This document shows, one piece after another, positions 5,524-23,652 of a stretch of 24,616 nt of DNA (the first letter of the stretch is position 1; each line of letters starts with the position of its first letter). Source of the DNA: a virus; the IMG/VR virus record IMGVR_UViG_3300045997_000140, positions 1-24,616 of that record. The stretch is one strand, 5' to 3'. The notes under the pieces were generated by a model, which did not search any database, was not told the origin of the DNA, and saw only the letters and a program-made list of their open reading frames with translations. Position numbers and translations under genes: made by a program.

Positions 5524-6023
5524 GGAGCACCTGGGGGCAGCGCGGGGGTTGTGGACAGCTCGACGGCCTCAGCGTCCACCACAGCGGATTTTTGAAGTAG
5601 TCGCTCAGCCTGCTCTAGCTCAGCGTCGGTGAGCTGACTGAGGTCGCGAGCCACGTGCTCCACGGTGCCCGAGTGCTCAATCGACACATTAGACGGGGCG
5701 GTGCCATTCCGTCGCTCAGCGAGCCACACAGCCGCCTCATAGCGCTCTCTGATAGTGGGTCCGACCTGCGGAATGAGCGCAGCGCTGGCTGCGTCCTCAC
5801 CTCGCTCGGGCTTGCGGCTCGGGCCCGACACGAGCCCGTCACGCACAGCGATAATGAACTTGATCGAATTCTCCGCGTTCGGGCCGTCGAGCCGGTCAAT
5901 CAGATCCATTATCCCACTAGGGCGCCCGCCCGGATTAGGCGATTTCATGCCCTTTTTCCACGCGGGGTTACCGCCTGGCCGGCGCTGCGGCTGCGGCGCT
6001 GTCTGATTGTTCTCAGTCGGCAT
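5520..6023 (-). CDS. Probable terminase small subunit with DUF5681-like N-terminus
   Basis: This encodes 167 residues from ATG 6023. The frame extends upstream to 6188, but those 55 codons cross the intergenic promoter region and lack protein-like composition. A CTTGACAC box lies exactly 36 bases before ATG 6023, which supports this start. Residues 15-40 (R-R-P-G-G-N-P-A-W-K-K-G, then P-N-P-G-G-R-P-S-G) match the Gly/Pro/Arg pattern of DUF5681 proteins, often encoded next to large terminase. The middle (G-P-T-I-R-E-R-Y-E-A-A-V-W-L-A-E-R-R-N-G) predicts as helix. Small terminase recognises the phage packaging site and regulates TerL. Location two genes before terL supports the role. The C-terminal 35 residues are an acidic helix then a Pro-rich tail. 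The call is by motif and context, not fold. Confidence 0.6.
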   Translation of the reverse strand: MPTENNQTAPQPQRRPGGNPAWKKGMKSPNPGGRPSGIMDLIDRLDGPNAENSIKFIIAVRDGLVSGPSRKPERGEDAASAALIPQVGPTIRERYEAAVWLAERRNGTAPSNVSIEHSGTVEHVARDLSQLTDAELEQAERLLQKSAVVDAEAVELSTTPALPPGAP

Positions 6024-9412: not shown

Positions 9413-9706
9413 ATGAACCCGATCGCGATTCCGCTGGCGTTGCTTTTCATGATCCCGCTTGGCCTGTTTTTTGTAGCTGTGTTGTTGGAGCTTTGTGCCT
9501 GGCTCTCTCGGCATATCCCTGACTTTCAGATCGTAGAGACCAAGTGGGGCGCATGGGGCAGCGGAATAGGGGCCGGCTCCTGTAAGCGGCGCGGTCGGTG
9601 GTTGTGGGTGCGGTACGAGCACCAGAGCTGTATTTTGTATTTTTCGGGAGATTTGACGTTACAGCTCCCTGCGTTCTATGAAGCGCGTGAGCGTTGGGGT
9701 TACTAG
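9413..9706 (+). CDS. Small membrane protein, one N-terminal helix
   Basis: This encodes 97 residues from ATG 9413, with GAGGT about 6 bases upstream. Residues 3-28 (P-I-A-I-P-L-A-L-L-F-M-I-P-L-G-L-F-F-V-A-V-L-L-E-L) form one strong membrane helix with no signal-peptidase motif, so the protein is probably anchored. The remainder is soluble and has R-R-G-R-W-L-W-V-R-Y near residue 60, then beta-like sequence. No family is recognised. It is the last protein gene before the tRNA-Leu, which follows by 8 bases. Confidence 0.6.
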   Translation: MNPIAIPLALLFMIPLGLFFVAVLLELCAWLSRHIPDFQIVETKWGAWGSGIGAGSCKRRGRWLWVRYEHQSCILYFSGDLTLQLPAFYEARERWGY

Positions 9707-16779: not shown

Positions 16780-17018
16780 TCACCTACGGCGGAGCACAGC
16801 TCACGGTGTGCGTGCCATCAAATGCGTCAATTGACGATCAGCCGTGCAAAATCGTCGACCTGGCTAACGCAGCCTACAGGTTCGCGCTGGTGGACACCTC
16901 GCTACAGCAAATAGCGATGTGTGACAATCCCGCGGTGCTTAGCGCTTGGGCCTTGTCGCTCGGAGCGAAGGAAGTGCGGCACGATTACGATCTCGTGCGG
17001 TACGCTTCAGGGCGCTGA
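16773..17018 (+). CDS. Hypothetical 81-aa protein
   Basis: I start at ATG 16773, which overlaps the previous TAG by 7 bases. A GTG at 16755 is also in frame. The product (M-L-V-T-Y-G-G-A-Q-L-T-V-C-V-P...) looks like a small alpha/beta fold with two helices (I-V-D-L-A-N-A-A-Y-R-F-A-L-V and A-V-L-S-A-W-A-L-S-L-G-A). No family is recognised. The last 8 bases are part of the 5' strand of the tRNA-like hairpin at 17011-17054. Confidence 0.55.
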   Translation: MLVTYGGAQLTVCVPSNASIDDQPCKIVDLANAAYRFALVDTSLQQIAMCDNPAVLSAWALSLGAKEVRHDYDLVRYASGR

Positions 17019-17054
17019 TTGGATCTCGGCTGGGTTCGACTCCCAGCCAGCGTC
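17011..17054 (+). ncRNA. tRNA-like acceptor/T-arm minihelix before the SNF2 helicase start
   Basis: GGCGCTG (17011-17017) pairs with CAGCGTC (17048-17054) with one G-U. Inside, CTGGG (17030-17034), loop TTCGACT and CCCAG (17042-17046) form a canonical T-arm. An alternative 7-bp stem, GGCTGGG/CCCAGCC (17028-17048), has the same loop. A 12-base connector replaces the rest of a tRNA. One base later is ATG 17056. This is the same plan as 11070-11116. Part of it is coding sequence for the previous gene. Confidence 0.35.
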
Positions 17055-17055
17055 T

Positions 17056-18924
17056 ATGGATATCAACGCAATAACCACGCTGGCCGGCGGCTCTCTGGTG
17101 CCGAAACAGGCCAGATTTACGATCGGCGCGCCTGTGGGCGATTCGGACGACCTGCGGCGTGTGCTTGCGCTGCCCCGTCGACAGCTGAACCCGTATGATC
17201 CGCTAGCCGCTCAGCTGTGGACAAAGCACCTTCGGCGTGAGCGCACGACCCCGTGTGATTGCGCGCAGCGCTGGCCTAATGGGTGTATTACCGACCTCCG
17301 GCCCGTTCAGGGCTGGGCGCTAGAGGAAGCGAGCGACGCTGGCGGGCTGATTGCGTCAATTGGGGTAGGCGACGGTAAAACAGGGATTGATATTCTGCTA
17401 TCGATGGCAATCCCAGGTGTGCAAAGCGCTGTGTTGCTCATACCCCCGTCACTACGCCATCAATTGCTGACTCGTGATTTTCCGCAGTGGTCGCAACATT
17501 TCAAGGTTCCGAACCTCGCTGGTGGCAGTGAGTTTGTGGTGGGTCGTCCTACACTCCACGTGATCACCTACTCCGAGCTATCGCAGACAAAAAACACGGA
17601 CCTACTGCGACGGTTTCCGCCCGACCTGATTATCGCTGACGAAATGCAGAACCTCAAAGACACGTCGAGCGCCAGAACGATCCGGTTCCTACGGGCATTC
17701 GCGGCTAAATCCTCCACGAAATTCGCCGGCCAGTCGGGCACCATTACCACAAAATCGATCAACGACAATGCCCACCTTCTCGTTTTAGCGCTACGCGAGA
17801 AGGCCCCCGTTCCCGTGCACCCGCCGGTCGTAAACGACTGGGCCACGGCGATTGACCCTATACCTGTTAATTCACCACCAGGGGCGTTGCTCCGGCTCTG
17901 TAACGCGCAAGAGCTGACACTAGAGCCCCTAGAGGCGGTTCGGGCCGCCTACGCCCGCCGGCTCCGTGAAACTCACGGCTACGTCGCGACAACGGAAAAC
18001 CGGCTAGAGTGCTCCCTGACTATCTCCGAGCGCAAGACCGACGTTCCAAGGCTATTGCGCGACGTTATACGCGAGGTTCGAGAGACACAGACTAGACCCG
18101 ACGGCGAGTATTTCGTCGAGAAAATGCAAGTCTCTGTGTGCTGCCGTCAGCTATCGGCCGGGTTTTTTTATCGCTGGAAGTTCCCACGGTGGGAGCCGCC
18201 CGAGACGATCGAGCGTTGGCGTGCAGTGCGCAAAGAGTGGTTTAGAGAAATTCGCCAGCGGCTAGAGAGCCCAGCCGAGCATATGGACTCACCCGGCAAC
18301 CTCACGAAGGCTGCGCTGCGGTGGGTGCACGGCTACCGCCACGAAGGCAAACTCTACCCGCCGCACACGCGAAACGGCCCCTTGCCGACGTGGGCGACCT
18401 CGAATCTGACCGAGTGGATCGAGGTGAAAGACACGGTCTATCACGAGACCGAACCGGTGTGGATCTCCGAGTGGCTGGTGCTCGACGTGCTAGAGTGGCT
18501 GCGCCAGAACAAAGGCATAGTGTGGTATGACTTCGACGCCTTTGGTCAGCTAGTCTATAAGCGCGCGCGCCAGGCTGGGATCGATGTGGGCTTTTTCGGG
18601 CGCGGGCGCGAGGCATCGATTATGATCGAGCGCGAGCGAGGCGACCGACCGATCATAGCGAGCGAGGCGGCACACGGCACAGGAAAGAACCTTCAATATG
18701 CGTTCAGCAAAAACCTATTTCCGAACCCGGCGCCCGATGGGTGGGAGCAAACGCTAGGGCGCACGCACCGCCAGGGGCAGCCGCGAGACGAGGTCACCGC
18801 GGAGATTTACCGACACCTAGAGTTTGGGCCCGCGTTCGACAGAGCCCAAGAACGCGCGCGCTACACTCAGGCTTTGGAGGGTCCAAAAAAGCTCTGTTAC
18901 GCGACTTACGACCTTGACACCTGA
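17056..18924 (+). CDS. SNF2-family (SF2) helicase/translocase
   Basis: This encodes 622 residues from ATG 17056. The frame is open from 16921, but that part overlaps the previous gene and has no conserved sequence. Motifs of the SNF2 group are ordered: R-P-V-Q-G-W (82-87), Walker A G-V-G-D-G-K-T (103-109), D-E-M-Q box (195-198), G-Q-S-G-T (225-229), and near the C-terminus L-G-R-T-H-R-Q-G-Q, the signature motif VI. An early C-D-C-A...C cluster (67-77) could bind metal. SNF2 ATPases move along duplex DNA; phage ones are thought to remodel forks or aid recombination. The DEMQ replaces DEAH/DEGH. There is no ribosome site before the start, which follows a tRNA-like hairpin by one base. Confidence 0.85.
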   Translation: MDINAITTLAGGSLVPKQARFTIGAPVGDSDDLRRVLALPRRQLNPYDPLAAQLWTKHLRRERTTPCDCAQRWPNGCITDLRPVQGWALEEASDAGGLIASIGVGDGKTGIDILLSMAIPGVQSAVLLIPPSLRHQLLTRDFPQWSQHFKVPNLAGGSEFVVGRPTLHVITYSELSQTKNTDLLRRFPPDLIIADEMQNLKDTSSARTIRFLRAFAAKSSTKFAGQSGTITTKSINDNAHLLVLALREKAPVPVHPPVVNDWATAIDPIPVNSPPGALLRLCNAQELTLEPLEAVRAAYARRLRETHGYVATTENRLECSLTISERKTDVPRLLRDVIREVRETQTRPDGEYFVEKMQVSVCCRQLSAGFFYRWKFPRWEPPETIERWRAVRKEWFREIRQRLESPAEHMDSPGNLTKAALRWVHGYRHEGKLYPPHTRNGPLPTWATSNLTEWIEVKDTVYHETEPVWISEWLVLDVLEWLRQNKGIVWYDFDAFGQLVYKRARQAGIDVGFFGRGREASIMIERERGDRPIIASEAAHGTGKNLQYAFSKNLFPNPAPDGWEQTLGRTHRQGQPRDEVTAEIYRHLEFGPAFDRAQERARYTQALEGPKKLCYATYDLDT

Positions 18925-18949: not shown

Positions 18950-19141
18950 ATGCTCTACGCACTGGTAGCAACAGCAATGATGGTTGGTTGGTGGGCCTGG
19001 CTTCGGTCGCGTAGAACCCCAGTTTATGAGATCAACAGCGCACAGTTGATCCAATCAATTCGCCGCAAGGCGAACCGCAGCACCCCGAGAAATTCCTTCT
19101 CGGGAGCGAGAGAGAAAGAGACAGACAATGGGAAACGTTGA
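18950..19141 (+). CDS. 63-aa membrane protein, probable leaderless mRNA
   Basis: I choose ATG 18950 rather than the in-frame upstream start at 18824, because a TTGACA-N17-TAGAGT promoter ends 7 bases before it. Residues 2-18 (L-Y-A-L-V-A-T-A-M-M-V-G-W-W-A-W-L) form one membrane helix, followed by R-S-R-R, a positive-inside signal that puts the C-terminus in the cytoplasm. The tail is basic and Ser/Asn-rich, and part is encoded by the hairpin 19084-19104. It overlaps the next gene by 14 bases. No family is recognised. A membrane tether for the replication machinery is a speculative idea from context. Confidence 0.55.
   Translation: MLYALVATAMMVGWWAWLRSRRTPVYEINSAQLIQSIRRKANRSTPRNSFSGAREKETDNGKR
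19084..19104 (+). promoter_or_regulatory. 8-bp hairpin just before the SSB-like gene
   Basis: CCCGAGAA (19084-19091), loop ATTCC, TTCTCGGG (19097-19104) is a perfect stem. It is followed by a purine-rich run (GAGAGAGAAAGAG) that would serve as ribosome site for ATG 19128. It may stabilise the mRNA end or set translation of the SSB-like gene. It also encodes part of the preceding membrane protein. Confidence 0.5.
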
Positions 19142-19703
19142 CGTAGCAGCATACGTGGCAAAAATCGTCGCCGCAAAGGGCAACGCGGGCGGCGGCACCG
19201 TGTTTCGTGATGGGCGGTACGTGCCTGCGCTCCGGTCGCTCAAGATCGAGCAAGCTCAGCGTGGGCCGATCGTGTGGCTCAAGGCCGAGTTTCTGGTGAT
19301 CGAGAGCGCGGCGGTTGACGTGCCGCCGAGTCACCGCAACCCCGGCGAGCCCGAGCCGACGCCGAACAAGGCTGGCACCGACGCCTCAATGATCTTCAAT
19401 ATCACTGAGGACACGGGGCTAAACAACGCGAAGGATCTGGCGATGGCTCTGGCAAACAAAGCCAAGGCCGACGTTGACGCGGATCCGACGTGGCTGGCGA
19501 ACTGGCTCACGTCGGCCACGAGCGCGAGTCAGCCTTTCACTGGTACGCCGCTCACGCTCACCACGTTCAGGCGGCAGATCAAGAACGGCAAGAACGCGGG
19601 ACGCATGGGAACGTTCTACAATATGACCCCCTACGCTACCACTCCCGAGGAAATCGGGCAGCTCCGGGCGATGATCCTGGCGAACAAGGCGCCCGCGAAG
19701 TAA
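19128..19703 (+). CDS. Probable phage single-stranded DNA-binding protein
   Basis: This encodes 191 residues from ATG 19128, behind a purine-rich ribosome site. The middle (F-R-D-G-R-Y-V-P-A-L-R-S-L-K-I-E-Q-A) followed by W-L-K-A-E-F-L-V-I-E-S-A matches the 'G-x-Y...v-k...G...A-E-f-x-V-l-E-S' pattern of small phage proteins annotated as SSB-like or DUF669-like, in which this forms an OB-fold core. After a Pro-rich loop comes M-I-F-N-I-T, then a C-terminal G-R-M-G-T-F-Y-N-M-T-P-Y. It lies among primase, helicase and polymerase genes, which suits an SSB. The acidic C-terminal tail typical of bacterial SSB is missing (it ends K-A-P-A-K). The name is inferred from pattern and place. Confidence 0.55.
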   Translation: MGNVDVAAYVAKIVAAKGNAGGGTVFRDGRYVPALRSLKIEQAQRGPIVWLKAEFLVIESAAVDVPPSHRNPGEPEPTPNKAGTDASMIFNITEDTGLNNAKDLAMALANKAKADVDADPTWLANWLTSATSASQPFTGTPLTLTTFRRQIKNGKNAGRMGTFYNMTPYATTPEEIGQLRAMILANKAPAK

Positions 19704-19714
19704 GGTATCGGTGA

Positions 19715-19744
19715 CCAGCCGACCGGAAACGGGCTGGGTTGTTT
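19715..19744 (+). terminator. Hairpin after the SSB-like gene, weak terminator candidate
   Basis: CCAGC (19715-19719) pairs with GCTGG (19733-19737). Inside, CCG-GAAA-CGG (19723-19732) forms a GAAA tetraloop hairpin with a 3-base bulge. It is followed by GTTGTTT. The T content is modest, so it could end the 18950-19703 transcript or be the first domain of the structured RNA that follows. Confidence 0.4.
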
Positions 19745-19834
19745 GGTCGCTGTGGGTTACCTGATCGCGCACCAGGCGAGAGCCATTTAAGGTGTAAGCC
19801 GCGATTCAGCTCGGTTCGACTCCGAGAGCGACCG
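19745..19834 (+). ncRNA. 90-base tRNA-like element with abnormal middle arm
   Basis: GGTCGCT (19745-19751) pairs perfectly with AGCGACC (19827-19833). A canonical T-arm CTCGG-TTCGACT-CCGAG lies at 19810-19826, with 3' base G. The 58-base interior does not make a normal D-arm or a 7-base anticodon loop. Instead TCGCG (19765-19769) pairs with CGCGA (19800-19804), enclosing CACC/GGTG and then GGC-GAGA-GCC. This is an acceptor and T-arm with one long arm, reminiscent of the tRNA-like half of tmRNA but without a tag. It could be a tRNA with a disordered or intron-bearing anticodon arm, or a new tRNA-like RNA. Confidence 0.45.
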
Positions 19835-19842
19835 GTGTAGTG

Positions 19843-20040
19843 CTCAGCGCGTGAGACGCTGAGGAGGACAGAGGTAGGTAACGCTAGGTGCTAGAGAGGA
19901 TCCTATAAACACAGCGGGTCTGACGGCATGACCGGACCTAAAACTTGCGTGGCTGTCGTCTAGTTTCCAGCCACGACCTCCTAGGATTATGACCCCGTGA
20001 GGTCGCGACTCTGGCGGGGCGCTCGAAAGCCTAGCGTTAC
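19843..20040 (+). ncRNA. Structured RNA domain with an 11-bp long-range closing helix
   Basis: No gene is seen here. CTCAGCG, 7-base loop, CGCTGAG forms a perfect hairpin at 19843-19863. GTAACGCTAGG (19878-19888) is the exact complement of CCTAGCGTTAC (20030-20040), enclosing 141 bases. Within it, ATCCTA (19900-19905) pairs with TAGGAT (19982-19987). CGTGGCTG (19948-19955) pairs with CAGCCACG (19968-19975). CCCCG (19993-19997) pairs with CGGGG (20015-20019). GGTC (19917-19920) pairs with GACC (19930-19933). Nested helices of this kind make a folded RNA very likely. It ends 5 bases before tRNA-Gln. I do not recognise it as RNase P, tmRNA or a group I intron. Large tRNA-associated phage RNAs such as GOLLD or ROOL are the comparison to make. 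Confidence 0.6.
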
Positions 20041-20045
20041 TGTTT

Positions 20046-20116
20046 AGGCGTGTCGTCTAATGGCAAGACGCGGGTCTTTGAAGCCCGTTATCTAGGTTCG
20101 AGTCCTAGCGCGCCTG
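20046..20116 (+). tRNA. tRNA-Gln(UUG): tRNA-Gln (anticodon UUG)
   Basis: The acceptor AGGCGTG (20046-20052) pairs with CGCGCCT (20109-20115, one G-U), with discriminator G. The D-arm is GTC, loop TAATGGCAA, GAC. The anticodon stem is CGGGT/GCCCG, loop CTTTGAA, anticodon TTG at 20078-20080. The variable loop is 4 bases. The T-arm is CTAGG, TTCGAGT, CCTAG. G73 and anticodon UUG support glutamine, reading CAA. CCA is not encoded. DNA polymerase starts only one base after the discriminator. Confidence 0.93.
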
Positions 20117-20117
20117 T

Positions 20118-22322
20118 ATGTACGCTCACCGATTCTCACTAGACGCCGAGACGTTTCTAATTCAACCCGGCTTGTTGGCGCCTGAGGGCGTGGTGTGGGC
20201 GTTTAAGATGGGCAGCGAGTCTTGGCTAGAGCCGTTTAAGGCCGGGCTAGAGACGCTGGCAGGCGCGTTGCGCGATGATGTGCTAGTGTGTGGAGCCAAT
20301 ATCGCCTACGATTTCGCGTGCGCGTGCCAGGCTGACCCGGAGCTGTTGCCGCTCGTGTTTGCGCACTACGACCGTGGCGGAGTGTTTGACGTGCTGATTA
20401 ACCAGGCACTGGCTGCCATTGCCGCAGGGCACCTGTTTCAAGACCCACTAGGCGGCCCGCTGAGGATGATTAAACCTGACGGCTCACTCGGCGCAGTCTC
20501 CAACCGCTACTCGTTGGAAATTGTCAACTACCTCAATACCGGCCGCATTGACGCTAAAGCAAATGATATTTATCGCCAGCGCTACGGCACGCTAGCCCAA
20601 ATTCCAATTGAGCAATGGCCAGAGATCGCTCGTCAATACCCGATAGACGACGTGGTCAACACAGATCGCAACGCCGAGATCCAGCTGACGTCTGTGGATA
20701 GGGCGGGGCTCGACAAATTTCAAAACGTGAATGTGCCGATCTTGCGCTACCGCCCGGCGGCCGGGCTTCACGACATGGAGCCCTTTCTAGCCTCGCTCGA
20801 CGGGCGAGCCATCACGCACGGTGCGTTCCAGGCTCGTGCCGCGTGGGCCCTCCACCTGGCGTCAGTGTGGGGGATGCGTACCGACCCGGCCGCGGTGGTA
20901 GCACTGCGCCAGCGTGTAGAGCAAGAGCGTGAAGCGGGGGCGGTGCGGCTTAAGGAGCTAAAGCTTTGGACCCCAGACGGTAAAGAGGACCAAGGCCGTA
21001 TCAAATACAAGGTCGCAGTGGCCTTCGGCGCTGACCCTAACAGCAAGTGCGCCGCGTGTGGTGGTAGCGGCAAGGTCGTTAGCCCTAAATCTGGCAACCC
21101 AATCAATTGTAAGGTCTGCTCTAAGACCGGTCTGCATATTCCGCCGACGGTACCAATGACGCCGACCGGCGGAGTTAAGGCCGACCGAGACACCCTAGAG
21201 CACTCGCACGATCCGGATCTAGAGCTATTGGCGAGTGCGGGATTCGCAGACAAGATCATTGACACCTACCTGCCCGTTCTAGAGGAAGCTTCACGCGTGC
21301 CGCTCAACACGCGCCCCAACGTGCTGATTGCGTCAGCGCGCGCGTCGTATGATGGGCTGGTGCAGACATTCCCGCGGGCTGGTGGAGTGCGCGAAACGTT
21401 CATACCGAGACCGCGTTTCCTTTTTGTGAGCTGTGATTACTCCGCGCTTGAGCTGAGCACCCTGAGCCAGGTGTGCCTGTGGACCGTCGGGTATTCTCGG
21501 CTAGCTGAGGCAATCAATGGCGGCAAGGACCCTCACGCGATTCTAGGGGCGAACCTGTGTGGTGTCTCGTATGAGCAATTCAAGGCCGCTCTAACCGATT
21601 CCGAGTCCAAGGACCGCGCCAAGGGGTTCCGGTTCGGAGCCAAGGCCGGAAATTTCGGGTTCGCTGGATTAATGGGTCCGGCGAAATTCGTGCTGACGCA
21701 GAGAGTTCAAAAGCTCGCCGGGCACGGCTCACTCTGTCGCGTGCTCGGGCGTGAGCCTAAGAGCGGTTGCGGCTCCACCAAGCTCTACGAGTGGCGCGGG
21801 CGCGAGGTGCCGCCTGTGTGTGAGGTGTGCGTGGAGGTCGCGGTTGAACTAAAAGAGGCGTGGCTAACCACGTGGCCCGAAATGAACGATTATTTCGAGT
21901 TCATCAAGCGCATTCCTGGCGTTGAGGAAGGCGCGGGCGTAATCATGAGCCCAGGAACCGGCTACGTGCGCGGTGGGTTGACGGCACCTGAGGCGGCAAA
22001 CCATTGCTTCCAGCACCTCGCGGCAATGGGCGCTAAGCACGCGCTGTACAACACGAGTCGCGAGTGCTACGCGGAGCCCAAGAGCCCGCTGTATGGCTCG
22101 CGCCCCATTCTATTTGCGCACGATGAGATTTTCGGCGAGCTGCCTGAGGATCGAGCGCATGAGGCGGCGCACCGCCTATCTGAGGTGATGACCGAGAGCA
22201 TGCGTGTTTTCGTGCCTGACGTAGATGTAAAGGCCCCGCCCGCCATCATGCGCCGTTGGTACAAGGCAGCGGAGCCTGTGTATGTTGACGGTCGACTTGT
22301 TCCGTGGGAGCCCAAAAAATGA
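20118..22322 (+). CDS. Family A DNA polymerase with 3'-5' exonuclease and zinc insertions
   Basis: This encodes 734 residues from ATG 20118, one base after tRNA-Gln and without a ribosome site. The exonuclease domain shows D9-x-E11, N61...Y64-D65 and Y174...D178. The polymerase shows motif A D440-Y-S-A-L-E, motif B R505...K509...F513 (K-A-G-N-F-G-F-A-G) and motif C H668-D-E, all catalytic residues present. Two Cys clusters look like zinc sites: C311-x-x-C-G-G-S-G with C331-x-x-C-S-K-T-G between the exonuclease and the palm, and C540, C551, C568, C571 within the fingers region. These are unusual for polymerase I. It is the main replicative polymerase. Its stop overlaps the next start as ATGA. 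Confidence 0.93.
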   Translation: MYAHRFSLDAETFLIQPGLLAPEGVVWAFKMGSESWLEPFKAGLETLAGALRDDVLVCGANIAYDFACACQADPELLPLVFAHYDRGGVFDVLINQALAAIAAGHLFQDPLGGPLRMIKPDGSLGAVSNRYSLEIVNYLNTGRIDAKANDIYRQRYGTLAQIPIEQWPEIARQYPIDDVVNTDRNAEIQLTSVDRAGLDKFQNVNVPILRYRPAAGLHDMEPFLASLDGRAITHGAFQARAAWALHLASVWGMRTDPAAVVALRQRVEQEREAGAVRLKELKLWTPDGKEDQGRIKYKVAVAFGADPNSKCAACGGSGKVVSPKSGNPINCKVCSKTGLHIPPTVPMTPTGGVKADRDTLEHSHDPDLELLASAGFADKIIDTYLPVLEEASRVPLNTRPNVLIASARASYDGLVQTFPRAGGVRETFIPRPRFLFVSCDYSALELSTLSQVCLWTVGYSRLAEAINGGKDPHAILGANLCGVSYEQFKAALTDSESKDRAKGFRFGAKAGNFGFAGLMGPAKFVLTQRVQKLAGHGSLCRVLGREPKSGCGSTKLYEWRGREVPPVCEVCVEVAVELKEAWLTTWPEMNDYFEFIKRIPGVEEGAGVIMSPGTGYVRGGLTAPEAANHCFQHLAAMGAKHALYNTSRECYAEPKSPLYGSRPILFAHDEIFGELPEDRAHEAAHRLSEVMTESMRVFVPDVDVKAPPAIMRRWYKAAEPVYVDGRLVPWEPKK

Positions 22323-22963
22323 AAACGTTTGCTGAATATCAGGTTGAAGTCATGCGCACCGCCAGCGCCCAAACCGGCATGGAAGCGCTACTCGTGCGCA
22401 CGCTGGGGCTGGTGGGTGAGGTTGGTGAAGTGGTGGAGCTGATTTTGGGTGTGACTGTGGTCGGTCGACCTCTCGATAAAGACGCATTTACGAAAGAGCT
22501 AGGCGATGTGCTGTGGTATATTGCAGCTCTGTTTCACTGGCTTGACGAATCTAACACCCCCACAATTGTGTTTTCCGTCGTCGAGAACCCGGATGTACGC
22601 CCACTAGCGCGTTTTTTTGATTTTTCTGAGCTAGTCAGCAACGGAATGCGGCTCACCGCGACCGCCGGGCTCGTAGCCGACCTAGTAAAAAAGTTCTTCG
22701 GGCACGGGGCACCCCTGGACAAGAACCGAGTGCTCGCGAATCTGCACCTAGCGCTTGTGCTCACACGTGCTATCGCCGATCTCGTGGGTGTGCCGCTGAG
22801 TGTTGTCGCCGAAAAGAACATTGCCAAGCTTCGCGCTCGCTACCCTCAGGGGTTCAGCGCTGAGGCGAGCAAGGCGCGGCTAGACGAAACGGCGCGCCTT
22901 GAAATGGTCGAGGTGCCTGGAAGTAAGACCGGCCTGGTGTACGATCGGGAGAACTGCTCATGA
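22319..22963 (+). CDS. MazG-like nucleotide pyrophosphohydrolase with degenerate second module
   Basis: I start at ATG 22319 (ATGA overlap; GGGAG upstream), giving 214 residues. The first module has L-G-L-V-G-E34-V-G-E37 and K-E60-L-G-D63-V-L-W-Y-I, the four acidic metal ligands of the MazG/all-alpha NTP pyrophosphatase fold. A second stretch (G-L-V-A-D-L-V-K-K...G-H-G-A-P-L-D...L-V-G-V-P-L) and the ending N-I-A-K-L-R-A-R-Y-P-Q-G-F repeat the same helical plan without the ligands. Phage MazG proteins clear (d)NTPs or alarmones. The protein is about twice the normal core length. It lies between polymerase and exonuclease, so it may tune the dNTP pool. Confidence 0.8.
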   Translation: MKTFAEYQVEVMRTASAQTGMEALLVRTLGLVGEVGEVVELILGVTVVGRPLDKDAFTKELGDVLWYIAALFHWLDESNTPTIVFSVVENPDVRPLARFFDFSELVSNGMRLTATAGLVADLVKKFFGHGAPLDKNRVLANLHLALVLTRAIADLVGVPLSVVAEKNIAKLRARYPQGFSAEASKARLDETARLEMVEVPGSKTGLVYDRENCS

Positions 22964-23652
22964 CCCACACGCGACGTTTTGTTTGGCTCGACATTGAAAC
23001 CACAGGTCTCAACCCGCTGGACGATAGGATTCTGTCGCTCGGAGTCATTGTTACCGCGGGCCTTTTCAACGAACTGGCGCGCGGCGAGTGGGTGGTGGGC
23101 GTTGGCGTCCAATCGTACCTGAAGAACGCGGCACCGTTCGTTCAGGCGATGCACGCCGCGAGCGGGCTCGACCAACGGGTCGCCGAGTCTAAGCTCTCGC
23201 TCCGCGAGGTGATCGAGCTAGCCAACCGCACAATCAACGGCGCTTGGCTGGGGTTAGAGGCGCACGCTTTTGATCAGCGCCCGATCCTAGCTGGCAGCTC
23301 GATTCATTTCGATCGCGGGTTCCTCGCCGCGCACGCGCCCGAGTTTTTGGACACGATGCATTATCGAATGCTTGACGTGTCATCATTCAAGGTTCTGGGC
23401 GAGAGCCGCGGAATCACCGCGCCCAAGCACGACAAGGCCCACACGCCGCTCGCTGACCTTGAGGCGTCACAGCGTGAGTTGAAATTCTGGCTCAAGGCGT
23501 TGACTGGCTCCGAGAGCGACCCGGGTGAACATGAGGGGCACCCCGTCGCTTGCCGCGAATGTAGTGGAAAGGGGCGAGTTTTCAATCACCGGATAGACCG
23601 GCAACGATGGGCCACGTGTCACGAATGTAACGGCACGGGGCTAGCGAAGTGA
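22960..23652 (+). CDS. Oligoribonuclease-like DEDDh exonuclease with C-terminal DnaJ-like zinc module
   Basis: This encodes 230 residues from ATG 22960 (ATGA overlap). D11-I-E13-T-T-G-L, S-S-I-H-F-D118-R-G-F-L, M-L-D-V-S-S-F-K and H161-T-P-L-A-D166 give the DEDDh set in the order and wording of oligoribonuclease, which degrades 2-5 nt RNA. It also fits the DNA polymerase III epsilon family. The C-terminus has C198-x-x-C201-S-G-K-G and C220-x-x-C223-N-G-T-G, a DnaJ-type CxxCxGxG pair not found in standard Orn. The same kind of module is inserted in the polymerase two genes upstream. A role in primer or RNA clean-up at the fork is plausible. Confidence 0.8.
   Translation: MTHTRRFVWLDIETTGLNPLDDRILSLGVIVTAGLFNELARGEWVVGVGVQSYLKNAAPFVQAMHAASGLDQRVAESKLSLREVIELANRTINGAWLGLEAHAFDQRPILAGSSIHFDRGFLAAHAPEFLDTMHYRMLDVSSFKVLGESRGITAPKHDKAHTPLADLEASQRELKFWLKALTGSESDPGEHEGHPVACRECSGKGRVFNHRIDRQRWATCHECNGTGLAK

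Follow-up and report, generated by a model that had tools for sequence, protein, structure and literature searches.

A candidate structured RNA ahead of tRNA-Gln in a phage replication operon

Here we describe a candidate RNA encoded in a 24.6-kb phage record from IMG/VR, analysed over its whole length of 24,616 nucleotides (the window). About 340 non-coding bases before a tRNA gene in the replication operon of this phage very probably fold into a closed RNA, and in distant relatives a folded RNA is retained in the same place though its sequence has changed almost wholly. That the locus is structured has good support, and the RNA is a new candidate outside known families. For its role we favour, with a probability of roughly 0.4, a structured intercistronic RNA of the replication operon that would be trimmed by RNase P at tRNA-Gln and serve the upstream gene as a stabilising or regulatory element at its 3′ end. 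The structured RNA of this locus is uncatalogued, open to testing and fixed in its place within the replication operon; if it is confirmed, phages outside the T4 group also tune replication genes by folded RNA, and a tRNA gene can have the second use of marking where a phage message is cut.

Results

On the + strand of the window a helicase gene, the gene of a 191-aa protein, a non-coding gap, tRNA-Gln and the gene of a family A DNA polymerase follow one another in that order, with the following features (L numbers denote contigs of related phages).

16921-18924, + strand: helicase.
19128-19703, + strand: upstream gene (open reading frame, 191 aa), in the SSB position between helicase and polymerase.
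19704-20044: non-coding gap of 341 bases, tRNA-like element included.
19715-19737, + strand: hairpin CCAGC-CGA-CCG-GAAA-CGG-GCTGG, read off the sequence, 11 bases past the stop codon.
19745-19833, + strand: tRNA-like element; the unconstrained MFE structure is a cloverleaf.
19843-19863, + strand: Hairpin 1, 7 bp (CTCAGCG/CGCTGAG), from the fold.
19878-19888, + strand: 5′ arm of the 11-bp closing helix, GTAACGCTAGG, from sequence, fold and randomisation.
19916-20004, + strand: possible pseudoknot, on the A5-B5-A3-B3 plan of L001, L005, L006 and L014.
19948-19975, + strand: interior hairpin of 8 bp (CGTGGCTG/CAGCCACG), in the MFE and centroid structures.
20030-20040, + strand: 3′ arm of the 11-bp closing helix, CCTAGCGTTAC, 5 bases ahead of the tRNA-Gln acceptor stem.
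20046-20116, + strand: tRNA-Gln (anticodon TTG), Rfam RF00005 at 61.3 bits; ARAGORN gives 20045-20117.
20118-22322, + strand: family A DNA polymerase (PF00476, phrog_17), start codon 2 bases past the last tRNA base.

The initial annotation had described a non-coding, folded locus some 400 bases long between SSB and polymerase, made up of a hairpin, a tRNA-like element, a closed RNA and tRNA-Gln; all of these could be located, and the start that it gave for the folded RNA, 19843, is the first base of the 7-bp Hairpin 1. Its polymerase label was right (family A, PF00476). The "SSB" label of the 191-aa protein is without database support, profile searches of Pfam, PHROGs and PDB all ending without a match, and a search of the protein against phages also gave none. 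Despite lacking a Pfam, PHROG or PDB relative, the 191-aa protein is conserved in several phages. On the + strand the closed RNA contains no ORF of at least 20 aa. A terminator scan listed no intrinsic terminator in the gap, the hairpin at 19715-19737 included; it is conceivable that this hairpin acts as a weak terminator, the T run that follows it being poor.

The closing helix proved to be as originally claimed, with GTAACGCTAGG and CCTAGCGTTAC perfectly complementary over 11 bp, 141 bases lying between them, and several smaller helices enclosed by it in the MFE structure. The fold of 19843-20040 has an MFE of -77 kcal/mol (z = -2.08), with 7 of 200 shuffled sequences equally stable. Across the window 11-bp inverted repeats are not rare (4 observed against about 1.9 expected per 24.6 kb); within the 341-base gap, a helix of this length appeared in 5 of 1000 Markov-randomised gaps (p = 0.005). 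Taken alone, the helix and fold statistics of the window are suggestive of a closed RNA rather than chance, and are not proof.

Relatives were found by polymerase and helicase searches of IMG/VR; with searches by upstream protein and motif included, the carriers of a gap number ten, namely the window and nine contigs with a non-coding gap (L001, L005, L006, L014, L007, L015, L029, L009 and L026). In all nine the gap begins directly after the gene that replaces the 191-aa gene. The upstream protein is 52% identical to that of the window in L001 and 46% in L005, both genes lying directly 5′ of the structured gap; the homology of the upstream genes leans partly on position, because the more distant proteins share only about 20% identity with that of the window. 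What separates the gap from the polymerase gene varies: tRNA-Gln follows the gap in L001, L005, L006 and L026, other ORFs intervene in L007, L015 and L026, and L014 has no tRNA-Gln. In L030 the operon is present essentially without a gap. Among named phages and plasmids, the window gap gave only tRNA-sized matches around tRNA-Gln and none to the RNA, and bacterial genomes yielded no relative of the polymerase.

For each gap the longest perfect closing helix was compared with those of 1000 randomised gaps, and the long helices were as follows.

Window: 11 bp, equalled in 5 of 1000 randomised gaps.
L014: 15 bp, 1 of 1000.
L007: 12 bp, 0 of 1000.
L015: 16 bp, 0 of 1000.
L029: 9 bp, 20 of 1000.
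L026: 10 bp, 14 of 1000.

Long closing helices (9-16 bp, p about 0.02 or less) thus occur in 6 of 10 gaps, the window and five relatives, and p < 0.03 was reached by 1 of 16 control stretches, ORF-free and drawn from the same and related contigs; relatives are few, and every pair test is built on small numbers. The gaps of L001, L005, L006 and L009 have no long perfect closing helix and are unremarkable against randomised gaps. Since the six helices are all unlike in sequence, what recurs at this locus is a shape and not a copied sequence. A long-range helix ends about 5-7 bases ahead of tRNA-Gln in the window, L001, L005 and L006, and in the last three a hairpin of differing sequence occupies the place that matches Hairpin 1 of the window. 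L005 also encodes, past the upstream gene and ahead of its pseudoknot core, a second closed, three-armed RNA (2314-2445; 9-bp stem CTTCAAGGC/GCCTTGAAG, z -2.4).

The pseudoknot core is marked by the motif CGGG..GARCA..CCCGCTA..CCCGAGG, common to L001, L005, L006 and L014 and absent from every other IMG/VR contig; a single bacterial match to it, inside a peptide-deformylase-like reading frame, was taken as chance. Helix A is TCGGGC/GCCCGA, or TCGGGG/CCCCGA in L006. Helix B (ATCGG/CCGAT, TTCGG/CCGAA, CTGTG/CACAG and CGCGC/GCGCG in the L001/L005/L006/L014 set) is fully paired in all four relatives with changes at all 5 pairs, the chance of a 5-bp helix at this place being 0.04-0.06 per sequence by shuffling. 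As the strands follow in the order A5-B5-A3-B3, the core is a pseudoknot. In L001, L005 and L006 a further helix pairs the loop of GGTTGNNGGTCAACC with bases ahead of tRNA-Gln, and this loop-to-3′ helix (GAGGGT/ACCCTC, GAAGGT/ACCTTC and GGTGGT/ACCACC) is kept by compensatory change, with a chance of 0.006-0.015 each. The core pairs were picked by eye and then tested, which inflates their significance; the compensatory changes stand. The pairs were checked by position and not by column counts, because MAFFT alignments set L006 out of register. The initial annotation had named covariation in homologous regions as one point on which its proposal turned, and the pseudoknot of the four relatives does covary: it is supported by covariation and has no Rfam entry. 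No close homologue of the window's own 11-bp helix was found among the relatives, so the covariation evidence comes entirely from the relatives' pairs.

In the window the corresponding elements would be A5 GGGTC (19916-19920), joining bases TGACGGCAT, B5 GACC (19930-19933), A3 GACCC (19991-19995) and B3 GGTC (20001-20004). This A5-B5-A3-B3 plan, with CA before B5, arose in 19 of 3000 random interiors under criteria set after the window had been viewed, and by the same criteria it is also seen at about five further sites on the + strand of the window. MAFFT sets AGCGGGTCTGACGGCATGACCGGA of the window opposite TATCGGGCAAAGAACATGATCGGA of L001. The motif of the relatives is not in the window gap, and a profile of the four relatives (5′ half of the motif) was not significant against that gap, 250 of 300 random gaps scoring as well. 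Because the plan match is post hoc and the profile test negative, we class the window RNA as homologous in position and only potentially so in structure.

The tRNA-like element at 19745-19833 folds unforced into a cloverleaf (z -1.7) in which, as in a tRNA, acceptor stem and T arm are fully paired: the former has 7 bp (GGTCGCT/AGCGACC), the latter 5 bp with the loop TTCGACT. Over the 397 kb scanned, nothing but this element and true tRNAs scored for the combined signature of acceptor and T arm. There is a 2-bp D-like arm, a long lower arm replaces the anticodon arm, and CCA is not encoded. With so short a D arm and no 7-base anticodon loop it is not a canonical tRNA, and only relaxed ARAGORN settings call it, for example as a "stop" tRNA with a 12-base intron; the tmRNA mode of ARAGORN finds no tmRNA in the gap. 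A comparable element is absent in L006 and not evident in L001 or L014. In L026 a 131-base tRNA-shaped RNA (2858-2988, z -3.5) lies just ahead of tRNA-Gln; its stem has 10 bp, and it contains inner hairpins and a T-loop-like UUCAAAU. The elements of the window and L026 are likely substrates of RNase P or RNase Z.

A cmscan of 19690-20130 at E up to 10 gave only the tRNA and chance matches, so that no known family fully explains the locus; of all Rfam families, only tRNA-Gln was matched. The kinship with GOLLD, ROOL or HEARO that had been raised found no support, cmscan giving no match to them in the window at gathering score or in 19690-20130 at E up to 10. HEARO is the omega RNA of IscB, and like the present RNA a structured RNA in mobile DNA, but Rfam gives no match here; no IscB or HNH gene was seen among the main window proteins scanned, a scan that covered part of the ORFs. 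Y RNA and retron-like a1/a2 stems were weighed purely as analogies, with no Rfam match and no partner gene seen. The L014 core (5936-5992) scored 18.3 bits (E 0.13) against int-alpA RNA (RF02996), sharing CUAG, a small hairpin and CGAAAAGCG; this is far under the gathering score of 35.8 and a lead only, and int-alpA RNA was not matched in the window or L005 scans.

Discussion

In the reading that we favour, the RNA would sit in the transcript of the replication operon, directly 3′ of the gene that precedes the polymerase gene and, in the window, 5′ of tRNA-Gln. If RNase P cuts at the 5′ end of tRNA-Gln, the new 3′ end of the upstream mRNA would lie about 5 bases past the closing helix. That helix and its folded interior could then form a 3′-terminal structure that resists 3′-to-5′ decay and/or, by way of the pseudoknot in relatives, a binding site for a replication protein, and expression of the upstream replication gene would thereby be set apart from that of the polymerase. 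We infer transcription, RNase P trimming and the stabilising or regulatory role. Counting for this reading are the helix, its rarity in the gap, the recurring closing helices, the covarying pseudoknot, the constant adjacency of the upstream gene, the spacing of about 5-7 bases between long-range helix and tRNA-Gln, and the T4/RB69 precedent described below; counting against it are the lack of a long perfect closing helix in L001, L005, L006 and L009, the lack of a close homologue of the window's own helix, the helices of L029 and L014, which lie at or close to the polymerase start, the nearly gapless L030, and the SSB label, without database support, on which any argument from SSB-like dosage or autoregulation would depend. 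As the constant neighbour is the upstream gene and not the polymerase gene, a 3′-end role on the upstream message is favoured over that of a polymerase leader. L014 lacks tRNA-Gln, and RNase P trimming therefore cannot be general. That the pseudoknot core is conserved suggests something beyond a plain 3′ cap. More tentatively, the RNA of this locus may belong to a new class of phage RNAs, tied to a place behind a single replication gene, in which a closed, pseudoknotted shape is selected while its sequence turns over almost fully and tRNA or tRNA-like cut sites release the RNA; such an RNA, perhaps decay-resistant or protein-binding, might set the ratio of replication proteins.

Alternatively, the RNA may be an independent small trans-acting RNA, or an RNA-only particle, excised between the tRNA-like element (by RNase Z, at its 3′ end) and tRNA-Gln (by RNase P, at its 5′ end). 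We regard this as possible but doubtful. It would fit the window, where the tRNA-like element, the closed RNA and tRNA-Gln stand in tandem, and also the tRNA-shaped closed RNA just before tRNA-Gln in L026 and the complex core of the relatives. ROOL is several hundred nt long. The whole gap, at 341 nt, falls short of the size of several hundred to over 800 nt given for ROOL and GOLLD. GOLLD is often >800 nt, and both are phage RNAs often found near tRNAs (PMC12286853). They resemble the present RNA in being phage-encoded, structured and near tRNA genes, and differ from it in exceeding the about 200-340 nt seen here and in the lack of an Rfam match. Against a trans-acting RNA stand the patchy occurrence of the tRNA-like element (none in L006, none evident in L001 and L014), the constant tie to the same upstream gene, and the lack of sequence conservation beyond the plan between window and relatives.

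It is unlikely that the RNA serves the polymerase gene as a translational operator or as an attenuator by covering the region where its translation starts, in the way known for T4 gp43. In T4 and RB69, both SSB and polymerase repress translation of their own mRNAs, and the RNA target of gp32 keeps its pseudoknot while its sequence diverges (PMC535899). The gene 32 and gene 43 operators resemble the present locus as folded RNAs beside an SSB or polymerase gene whose structure outlasts sequence, but they occupy the ribosome-binding site, 5′ of the gene that they control, whereas this RNA lies 3′ of an upstream gene whose SSB label lacks database support and is separated from the polymerase gene by tRNA-Gln. 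A structure that overlaps the initiation region is found in L029, where the 9-bp closing helix (9565-9640, z -4.1) reaches into the start codon of the polymerase gene and the SD sits immediately within the loop, as expected for a translational switch, and nearly so in L014, where the 15-bp helix stops 6 bases before the ATG. It is not found in the window, L001, L005 or L006; in these and in L026 a tRNA gene intervenes, as do other ORFs in L007, L015 and L026.

A put-like antitermination RNA acting on the transcribing RNA polymerase appears quite improbable. The put RNA of HK022 is likewise a structured RNA within a phage operon, and it acts in cis (PMC9378689); protein-independent action of this kind would tolerate varied neighbours. 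The present RNA, however, lies well inside its operon, and sequence turnover is not expected of a surface that contacts RNA polymerase. An element acting as DNA (a replication origin, cruciform or small inverted-repeat insertion) is very improbable: the position between replication genes and the perfect inverted repeats would suit it, but the GC-skew minimum is near 5-6 kb, away from the gap, no target-site duplication was seen at the helix arms, and the covariation of the relatives' pseudoknot points to RNA. Chance folding of a GC-rich gap, with unrelated RNAs in the relatives, has a fold z of only about -2 and the negative profile test in its favour and is nevertheless hardly credible given the helix p of 0.005, the long helices at the same locus in five relatives and the rate of 1/16 in controls.

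Three further features of the window were noted. The polymerase start lies only 1-2 bases past the last base of tRNA-Gln (20116-20118 in the window, about 728-733 in L006), and if the 3′ end of this tRNA is cut, the polymerase message would be nearly leaderless. The polymerase itself (20118-22322) carries, at residues about 311-339, a zinc-ribbon-like insert of the form CxxCxGxG...CxxC that is conserved in relatives, and the exonuclease at 22960-23652 also has a DnaJ-like CXXCXGXG stretch.
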